Shown here piece by piece: positions 4,201 to 19,771 of a DNA stretch of 50,270 bases. The notes under the pieces are model-generated. The model was given only the letters and a program-made list of their open reading frames with translations. It did no database searches and was not told the DNA's origin. How positions within the stretch are numbered: the stretch's first letter is position 1; the number at the start of each line of letters is the position of its first letter. Made by a program: the position numbers and the translations under genes. Origin of the DNA: Bacteriovoracales bacterium (GTDB lineage: Bacteria > Bdellovibrionota > Bacteriovoracia > Bacteriovoracales > Bacteriovoracaceae); contig JAPONP010000067.1 of NCBI GenBank assembly GCA_026713835.1, positions 1 to 50,270 on the forward strand, written 5' to 3'.

Positions 4201-5784
4201 ATGATCCAGTACCAAGAAGAATTACGTGAAAATATAAAGAGGATTATTCCTTTTAATGGGCGTTGCTATATTCAAAAAATCTATAGTTCATCTACACTTA
4301 TTTGTCTTTCTGTACGTTTTTTAGGTAAAGGGTGCTTTTTGTATCTTGGAAGAGGAAATGGAATCGAAGGTTTTTGGGCGGCTTCCAAAAAGATTCCGGC
4401 AGAAATGAGAAGATCGGATAGATTTTTGGAATATCTTAGAAAACATCTTAGTTCAAAAGAAATTTTAGATATTGCTCAAGTTTTCAATGATCGTTGTATT
4501 CAAATAATTTATAGATCACATGGATACGAAAATTCATTTATTTTCTTTTGGAAAGGAAGAAAACTGTATTTTTTAAACTATTTCTTCAATAATAGGATGA
4601 AAAAATTTCAACTGCTTAAATCTTGGTTGGGAAAAGAAATTTTAGAGAAAGAAATATCATTGGATGATCTTTATGAGTCATTACTGGATATTGGGCTTAG
4701 TCAAGATTTTTCCGGTGTTTTAAAAAAATCTAAAACATCTATTGATGAAATAATTGAAATGGAAAAAAGGAAGCTGGTCAAGGTTAATAATTCGAGCAAA
4801 AAATACAAATACCTAAAAAGAAAATATGATCGTATTTGTCATGACTTAAAAAAAATAAAAGATGCTATTCTTTTAAAGGAGAGATTGATATCGAGCGACT
4901 TTTCTTGTGATGACTTAGGGGCCCAATTTGTTTTCAGGGATTTTAAATTGAGACTTGACAAAGATTTAAATCCTTTTCAAAAAAGAGATTTCATCTTTAA
5001 AAAAATTAAGTCATGCGAGAGAGCAAAAAAAATTCTTGACGAAAGAAAGCAGCAAACTGAAAAAGAAATAGAGGCATGGGAGAAGGAGAGAAGCACTTTC
5101 ACTTTTCATGATTTTTCTCAAAAAAAGGTAACTGCTCGCACCTCTAGCAAAAACTGTAATAAAGGCAAGGTAACTGTTCTCCACCCGGATAAGATTGGTA
5201 GGAGGCAACGAGGAGCGACCGAGGCGTGCTTCCTGCACGTCGCAGGAAAGCGACGAGACAGTCGACTGCCAAGGTTGCCGGGGGGTGAGCAGTTACAAAA
5301 AAAGCAAAGCAAGCAAGATCCGTATGGGAAGAAAGAACTCAAAATGATTACGCCCTACTGGATCATCCCGAAAAAAGGAGGATTAAGAGAATTGAAGCTC
5401 AAAAAACCACCCTTTACGATCTTTCGTTTTAAGGAGGGAGGGGACTTTGCTATTGGAAATAATGATGAGGGCAATGATTTTTTGCGATCAAAATGGGGAA
5501 AGAGCGATGATTTATGGTTTCATTTAGAAGGATATCCCGGCCCCCACCTTGTTTTAAAAAAAGAGAATAGAACGGAGAACCTAACGGAATCATTATTAAG
5601 AGTGATTGCCTCCGCTTTAAGAGATTACTCAAAACTTGCGATTAGAGAAATACCTCTCGTTTTTACTCAATTAAAGAATATTAAAGGAGTTCGGGGACAT
5701 AGGGGGAAAGTCACCTATAGGAGAGAAAAATACATAAAAATAGGTTATAATAAGGCATGGAAGGAGAAAACGGAGAGCGAATAA
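4201..5784 (+). CDS. NFACT family protein (RqcH/Rqc2-like), interrupted in frame by a palindromic repeat
   Basis: C-terminal NFACT-R-like FAIGNNDEGNDFLRSKWGKSDDLWFHLEGYPGPHLVLK...RGHRGKVTYRREKYIKIGYN; long coiled-coil middle; N-terminal NFACT-N-like region. Confidence 0.82.
   Translation: MIQYQEELRENIKRIIPFNGRCYIQKIYSSSTLICLSVRFLGKGCFLYLGRGNGIEGFWAASKKIPAEMRRSDRFLEYLRKHLSSKEILDIAQVFNDRCIQIIYRSHGYENSFIFFWKGRKLYFLNYFFNNRMKKFQLLKSWLGKEILEKEISLDDLYESLLDIGLSQDFSGVLKKSKTSIDEIIEMEKRKLVKVNNSSKKYKYLKRKYDRICHDLKKIKDAILLKERLISSDFSCDDLGAQFVFRDFKLRLDKDLNPFQKRDFIFKKIKSCERAKKILDERKQQTEKEIEAWEKERSTFTFHDFSQKKVTARTSSKNCNKGKVTVLHPDKIGRRQRGATEACFLHVAGKRRDSRLPRLPGGEQLQKKQSKQDPYGKKELKMITPYWIIPKKGGLRELKLKKPPFTIFRFKEGGDFAIGNNDEGNDFLRSKWGKSDDLWFHLEGYPGPHLVLKKENRTENLTESLLRVIASALRDYSKLAIREIPLVFTQLKNIKGVRGHRGKVTYRREKYIKIGYNKAWKEKTESE
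5128..5296. mobile_element. Family-1 palindromic MITE-like element (169 bp) inserted in frame in the NFACT gene
   Basis: Ends GTAACTGCTCGCACC ... GGGGTGAGCAGTTAC are inverted repeats; flanked by identical AAAAAAAG (5120-5127 and 5297-5304); second copy at 50132-50270. Confidence 0.93.
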
Positions 5785-18343: not shown

Positions 18344-19560
18344 CTACTTGGAAATATGTTGGGTTTAATGAAACGAAGAAAAGAGTTGAAGGAGAACTTA
18401 TAGCCAACTCTGAAAGAGAGGCCCGTCGTCAACTTAGAAAAAAAGGGATACGCCCTAGAAAATTAACACCTCCATCAATATTCAATGCCGATTTAGGTGA
18501 ATTGATTGTTAAGCTTGGTCTTTCAAAGCCTTTTAAAAAAATTGAGCTTTTGGATTTTCTTCGGCAATTTGGGGTGATGAATGGTGCAGGTGTCCCCATT
18601 TTGCAGTCGTTTGAGATTCTTTTTAAAAATCAGAAAAACCCTATTTTAAAAAAAATGATTGGAGATATCGCTCAAGATATTCGAGGTGGAAAAAGCTTTT
18701 CTGATTCTATTGAAGGAAGACCTGGATTTGATCAAGTGACGATTAACCTCATCAGGGCCGGTGAGCTTGGTGGAGCCTTAGAGGAAATGATAGCAAGAAT
18801 TGTTACTTTTATGGAAAAGCAAGAAAAAACAAAAAAAGATATTAAGTCGGCCATGACTTATCCGGCTATTGTATGCTGTGTTGGCTTTGGGGTTGTTACT
18901 ATGTTATTGATATTTGTTGTTCCAAAATTTGTCGATATAATTAAATCTTCCGGCCAAGAGGTTCCCGGTGTCACTCAATTTGTCATCAATGTTTCTAATT
19001 TGTTTTTTGATTATGGATTTTTTATGTTGGCCGTTGGAATTATTGGCTTTATTGCCTTGGCTAAATATATTAAGACCGATGCAGGTAAAAAAATATTTGA
19101 TACAATCATGATGAAATTTCCTATCTTTGGAGAAATTGTGATTAAAGGGAATTTATCATCTTTTTCTAGAGTTTTATCAACGATGCTAAATTCCGGAGTT
19201 TCCCTCATCGATTCATTGGATATCTGTATTGAAGCTATCGATCATTCTATTGTGGCCAAAGATATTCAAAGAGTCAGAGATTCTGTATCTAAGGGGAAAA
19301 CGATAACGGAACAAATTTCAAGGATTCCTTACTTTCCTGTTATGGTTTCTCAAATGATTAAAATTGGTGAGCAAACAGGAGAGTTGGATAATATGTTGGA
19401 AAAAGTTTCCAATGTTTTTGAAGAAGACGTGGATAATGCTGTTAAGAATATGACAAAACTCATTGAGCCTATTATCATTGTTGTTTTGGGAGGGATTACG
19501 GCATTGATTCTAATAGCTATGTATCTTCCGATTTTTATGTCTGCCGGAGGAGGGAATTAA
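18340..19560 (+). CDS. pilC: Type IV pilus inner membrane protein PilC
   Basis: T2SS/T4P PilC/GspF pattern: LLDFLRQFGVMNGAGVPILQSFE, RAGELGGALEEM, KIGEQTGELDNMLEKV. Confidence 0.96.
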   Translation: MTTWKYVGFNETKKRVEGELIANSEREARRQLRKKGIRPRKLTPPSIFNADLGELIVKLGLSKPFKKIELLDFLRQFGVMNGAGVPILQSFEILFKNQKNPILKKMIGDIAQDIRGGKSFSDSIEGRPGFDQVTINLIRAGELGGALEEMIARIVTFMEKQEKTKKDIKSAMTYPAIVCCVGFGVVTMLLIFVVPKFVDIIKSSGQEVPGVTQFVINVSNLFFDYGFFMLAVGIIGFIALAKYIKTDAGKKIFDTIMMKFPIFGEIVIKGNLSSFSRVLSTMLNSGVSLIDSLDICIEAIDHSIVAKDIQRVRDSVSKGKTITEQISRIPYFPVMVSQMIKIGEQTGELDNMLEKVSNVFEEDVDNAVKNMTKLIEPIIIVVLGGITALILIAMYLPIFMSAGGGN

Positions 19561-19736
19561 GAGCCTATCCTAAAACCACCTTCTATTGCAATCGGCTGCA
19601 ATTGTGCCGGGCTTCGTCTTTAAGCAAAGAATGCCCTCAACGTGCCACAAGCACGCCTTCAGACATTTTTTGCTTTCATCCTTGCCGGGCACAATCTCGC
19701 TCGCTTTCATCACGAAAGTGGTTTTAGGATAGGCTC
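19561..19736. mobile_element. Family-2 palindromic MITE-like element, complete copy (176 bp)
   Basis: Terminal inverted repeats GAGCCTATCCTAAAACCACCTT / AAGTGGTTTTAGGATAGGCTC; TTAA on both sides (19557-19560 and 19737-19740); internal large hairpin centred on CGTGC-CACAA-GCACG. Confidence 0.9.
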
Positions 19737-19771
19737 TTAATTTTGGCGAGGAAAAATATCGCCACGAGGGT

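Follow-up and report, generated by a model that had tools for sequence, protein, structure and literature searches.

A palindromic MITE, most likely IS66-type, in frame within a putative NFACT-domain gene of a Bacteriovoracaceae-type genome

Selfish DNA that adds in-frame segments to proteins is best known in Rickettsia, and a 2024 review calls its occurrence elsewhere in prokaryotes 'conceivable' (PMC10969869). That review (PMC10969869), which cites Ogata et al. 2000 and 2002, describes the Rickettsia palindromic elements (RPE) as palindromic selfish units of ~150 bp that lie in frame in unrelated protein-coding genes. ERIC and other intragenic MITEs with ORFs can also fuse in frame with host genes (PMC10969869).

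Here we present a case from the Bdellovibrionota in which the signature of transposition is readable and in which natural size variants serve as an internal control of whether the frame is preserved. The window is the whole stretch of 50,270 nucleotides that was analysed; it forms contig 67 of a draft genome of Bacteriovoracaceae type, which comprises 235 contigs and 2.34 Mb in total. Table 1 gives the features of the locus. Taking all results together we consider it very probable that an IS66-type MITE was moved in trans into a putative NFACT-domain gene, that the gene is read through in frame, and that the survival of such copies inside genes is filtered by length, frame and site. What goes beyond the first-pass annotation of this DNA are the IS66-type ends, the repeated occurrence in other genes and in signal peptides, the test by size class and the nested structured module.

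Table 1. Features of the NFACT-domain locus and of the repeat copies in the window
Feature	Position	Strand	Basis or remark
Divergent NFACT-domain (RqcH/FbpA-like) host gene, 527 aa including the insert	4201..5784	+	ORF
Left 8-bp target-site duplication (TSD) AAAAAAAG	5120..5127	.	Flank identity; 8-bp TSDs family-wide
169-bp MITE copy (most likely IS66-type)	5128..5296	+	+ frame 0: 56 residues plus one base
MITE plus single TSD copy	5128..5296 + 8 bp	+	59 codons
Left terminal inverted repeat GTAACTGCTCGCACC	5128..5142	+	Sequence
53-bp module absent from the 116-bp form	5208..5260	+	Bounded by GAGGCA direct repeat
Right terminal inverted repeat, minus strand GTAACTGCTCACCCC	5282..5296	-	1 mismatch in 16 against the L125 ends GTAACTACTCACCCCC
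Right 8-bp TSD AAAAAAAG	5297..5304	.	Flank identity
Second MITE copy, cut by the contig end	50132..50270	+	99% over 139 bp

The host gene and the inserted repeat

The host protein shows Pfam matches to NFACT_N (9e-7) and NFACT-R_1 (1.2e-4), both under the curated cut-offs, and partial NCBIfam matches to RqcH_arch and EfbA. The gene is a single locus with orthologs in most of 36 relatives of the family. The ortholog alignments end near residue 295 and restart near residue 380. The insert is absent from all 19 aligned orthologs and the site falls in a variable linker before NFACT-R; an empty form of the site is presumed. The first-pass annotation had placed the insert in this linker of an NFACT-domain gene and had proposed the homolog alignment as a check. 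The placement was borne out, with the Pfam matches at the strength given above, and the aligned orthologs lack the insert, as it had expected. An AlphaFold model of the host protein, computed without an alignment, was set aside (mean pLDDT 37).

The repeat unit starts with GTAACTGCTCGCACC and finishes with GGGGTGAGCAGTTAC, and the octamer AAAAAAAG flanks it on both sides. The earlier claim of a mobile unit with inverted repeats and an 8-bp duplication proved exact to the base. Across the genome the core pattern of the repeat was matched at least 104 times, compared to 0 matches for a reversed-pattern control. Our copy survey covered 120 genome stretches and returned 130 copies, 40 of them with both ends. 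These 40 copies fall into distinct size classes: 169 bp (23 copies), 170 bp (2), 116 bp (10), 109 bp (2) and 89 bp (3). For the 38 copies with both flanks the 8-bp TSD was perfect in 27 cases and matched at 7 of 8 positions in a further 6, so that 33/38 copies reach at least 7/8. In four copies the TSDs are poor (the first copy of L043, L044, L063 and L293); these seem to have recombined or decayed. L293 is a 187-bp copy with its left flank from one site and its right flank from another; the partner flanks were found at two other contig ends (L298, L292), which points to copy recombination or an assembly misjoin. Many copies sit at contig ends, indicating that the repeat broke the assembly. 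We also distinguished a subfamily B of ~12 copies, ~82% identical, in which compensating indels keep both the 169 bp and the two open frames. The family is short, multi-copy and transposase-free, and has terminal inverted repeats and a TSD of fixed length (8 bp), as expected of a MITE. The full-MITE pattern had no match in 84,980 named genomes (a set from which its own genome was possibly excluded), and in 192 relatives a search for the 169-bp repeat returned core matches alone, within other repeats.

To place the element we inspected the IS66 transposases of relatives for element ends. One IS66 element, L125 in genome G019, is intact and of the single-transposase type; it measures 1,565 bp, its ends read GTAACTACTCACCCCC and its TSD is AGGATAAC. 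The minus-strand end of the MITE, GTAACTGCTCACCCCC, differs from the L125 end by one base, and in the 192 relatives the exact 16-mer GTAACTACTCACCCCC is confined to the two L125 ends. Another IS66, L118 in G003, has ends GTAACTACCCA and the TSD AAAAAAAG. The MITE thus combines IS66-matching ends with the 8-bp TSD seen in both L125 and L118, and given that its ends are one base off IS66 ends the 169-bp unit is most likely an IS66-type MITE. No intact cognate IS66 transposase was found in its own draft assembly, which holds two truncated remnants at contig ends; as the assembly is a draft, this absence is a weak argument. The remnants (L101-L103, contigs 231 and 104) are nearest to the subgroup of L104, whose ends differ, and they were rejected as the helper because they belong to this other subgroup. 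Having no cognate transposase from the same genome, we use the label 'IS66-type' and do not call the element a proven IS66 derivative.

Mobilisation in trans by a putative IS66-type helper is well supported by the anatomy of the element. An IS66-family transposase would have moved the non-autonomous MITE, and the helper would be an intact IS66 carrying GTAACTGCTC ends. The MITE would have landed in a AAAAAAAG stretch of the linker that joins the coiled coil to NFACT-R, with duplication of the eight bases.

Frame preservation and copies inside genes

Two frames of the element are free of stops, one on each strand: + frame 0 and - phase 1. Counting one copy of the TSD, the net lengths of 177 (169+8) and 117 (109+8) are divisible by three; 124, 97 and 178 are not. 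As 169+8 bp make whole codons and the frame is stop-free, the NFACT gene should still read through, and the predicted protein would contain 59 additional residues. The same reckoning (177 bp, 59 codons, frame kept, no stop) had been made at first pass and agrees with the ORF, which crosses the unit without a stop.

We called a copy in-gene if both its ends were present, a start codon preceded it and 80 codons or more of the gene followed. The conservative list comprises the copy in the window, L042, the second copy of L043, L047, L049, L050, L053, L070, L082 and L144. All of these belong to the classes divisible by three, where they account for 10/25 copies compared to 0/15 in the other classes (116, 89 and 170 bp); the difference is significant (Fisher p=0.0039), in a test that counts related copies as independent and in which the size classes share ancestry. 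Furthermore 10/10 of the conservative in-gene copies are in an open frame (p=1.7e-5 at one-third chance). This is what the genome-wide copy check suggested in the first-pass annotation yielded. Five N-terminal cases (L052, L055, L140, L148 and L184) were excluded from the statistics, since the native start is possibly downstream of the element.

The recurrence can be seen in unrelated genes. L144 is a CtaA-CtaB fusion with an in-frame copy within the COX15-CtaA part (TSD CTCAAAGG). Another case is a Mur ligase gene, the two parts of which are found on L067 and L179: both stretches end in the element, in frame and with the identical TSD GAGAAAAG, and Pfam places the N-terminal and middle domains on one contig and the C-terminal domain on the other. 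An open-frame copy lies in at least seven N-terminal signal-peptide regions (L042, L043, L047, L049, L050, L053, L070, L082), and 8/10 of the in-gene copies are found at signal-peptide-like N-termini of exported proteins; in these assignments start codons and the look of a signal peptide were judged by eye, without a gene caller. The start codon of L043 is TTG. If the element is removed on paper, the N-terminus of L042 reads MKLSTLISSF and then LGLLMTLIPSGYPLYA. The N-terminal clustering fits a tolerance at flexible N-terminal regions together with A/T-rich targets; its cause may be either the choice of target or tolerance.

In-gene copies would persist only where length and frame leave the host protein made, with purifying selection as the presumed filter, and tolerant sites would be linkers, N-terminal signal-peptide regions and the last residues of proteins. 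We also observed frame-breaking short copies within ~10 codons of native stops (L043, L131, L132, L134, L136, L149). In copies whose net length is not divisible by three, the element end GTAA is able to supply a new stop near the native one.

There are several other possible readings of an open insert. The host gene could be a decaying pseudogene that is open by luck, since the insertion looks recent, leaving little time for decay, and one third of random insertions would be open (two of six frames). However, the ORF is single and intact over 527 codons, the similarity to orthologs extends to both sides of the insert, and none of the ten conservative in-gene copies is in a closed frame; we therefore regard a pseudogene as highly improbable. 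The insert could also be cut out at the RNA level or skipped during translation, giving a mature protein that lacks the segment. Folded as RNA, the 169-bp unit does have a strong hairpin, better than 200/200 shuffles (z -4.5), but we found no match to an intron or any other family in Rfam, and removal of the insert would make a frame-keeping length and an open-frame bias unnecessary. This explanation is extremely unlikely.

The remaining question is whether the insert is used. The first-pass annotation had called the element domesticated, which would mean that the 59-residue Arg/Lys-rich segment gained a selected function, such as the binding of RNA or of the ribosome. Its basic composition, its location next to an RNA-binding domain and the intact frame would all suit such a function. 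On the other hand, only 4/169 positions separate the copy in the window from the consensus of the family, and the peptide is not confined to this protein: it recurs in unrelated proteins and in intergenic copies, which are equally open in reading frame. Three element peptides were compared to NCBIfam and Pfam and had no match at E up to 1. The dN/dS ratio between subfamilies A and B is ~1 in both open frames (for the first 120 bases of + frame 0 the two terms are 0.165/0.175), although with 18 differences only the power of this test is low. The small divergence, the open intergenic copies and the dN/dS value give no sign of peptide use, so we did not retain the term and consider domestication very unlikely. 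As far as can be judged from sequence, the insert looks like selfish DNA that is tolerated through read-through and not like a domesticated part of the protein.

The structured 53-bp module

What the 169-bp form has beyond the 116-bp form is the 53 bp bounded by the GAGGCA repeat. This module contains the hairpin GAG-GCGTGC-TTCCT-GCACGT-CGCA. Deletion probably gave rise to the short forms, since subfamilies A and B both have the module and the 116-bp copies match subfamily A in the rest of their length. The hairpin core GAGRCGTGC-N-GCACGTCGCA was found in four other genomes of the family (reversed control 0) and, among named genomes, in Bacteriovoracaceae, Bdellovibrionales, Gemmatimonadetes, Acidobacteria, Deltaproteobacteria and Clostridia. 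A palindrome of 122-188 bp surrounds the core in 17/19 tested loci, with arms that vary from genome to genome. Besides the window copy, L144, L235, L251, L232, L243 and L242 were noted as module-bearing loci; the core matches L225, L258, L259, L261 and L272 in named genomes seemed to be due to chance or to coding sequence and were excluded from the alignment.

The search pattern left the outer stem free. Across 30 sequences this stem has 28 both-side-changed cells compared to 10.5 in shuffles (0/500), and sliding the stem gave between 3 and 18. Model R1, which was built without sequences of the own genome, matches window positions 5207-5256 at 1.2e-9. It also matches the subfamily B copies (8e-9 to 4e-8), which lay beyond the reach of the core pattern and have a compensatory inner stem; on the 116-bp copies it had no match. 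Rfam had no family that matched the element or the core at 14 other loci, and among the matches listed a text search for the core sequence gave unrelated ones only. A second palindromic repeat family with ends AGAGCCTATCC..GGATAGGCTCT is present at positions 1-157 and 19560-19742 of the window and in tens of copies in the genome; its hairpin GGCGTGC..GCACGT matches model R1 weakly (E 0.16).

We tentatively suggest that the module is of a kind not described before, that it is shared at the apex of unrelated palindromic mobile repeats in several phyla and that a common host or transposition factor might recognise it, a reading that we see as possible but doubtful. With the same reserve, its form would be a variable outer stem, a GAG / CGCA internal loop and an RCGTGC-loop-GCACGT stem. 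That it serves as a recognition structure for elements of different origin is a guess. A nested module that is absent from Rfam and common to repeats with different ends across phyla makes it a testable question what recognises it.

Comparison with known systems

The MITE resembles IS66 of the single-transposase type (e.g. L125) in its ends, which start with GTAAC and show 15/16 identity, and in the 8-bp TSD. In contrast to IS66 it is only 169 bp long and without a transposase, and its interior is unrelated to the IS66 interior. With REP/RAYT and other hairpin repeats it shares a structured hairpin in many copies; however, it moves as a TIR/TSD element, and its core motif spans phyla in palindromes with unlike arms. 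ERIC is likewise a MITE able to fuse in frame with a host gene. Its sequence, which we take to be different from that of the 169-bp MITE, sets it apart, and the size classes found here permit a test of frame preservation.

The closest known parallel are the Rickettsia palindromic elements. The first-pass annotation had pointed to this likeness and the comparison is apt: both are short palindromic selfish units with a conserved peptide, and in both cases in-frame insertions recur in several unrelated protein-coding genes. The MITE differs from RPE in that it occurs in another phylum, its 8-bp TSDs and IS66-type ends are readable, and most of its copies are intergenic or at gene edges. Its peptides match no NCBIfam or Pfam model, a difference judged at the level of peptides. 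As these libraries showed no peptide kinship to an RPE family, we do not file the MITE as one of them, but it works like them.
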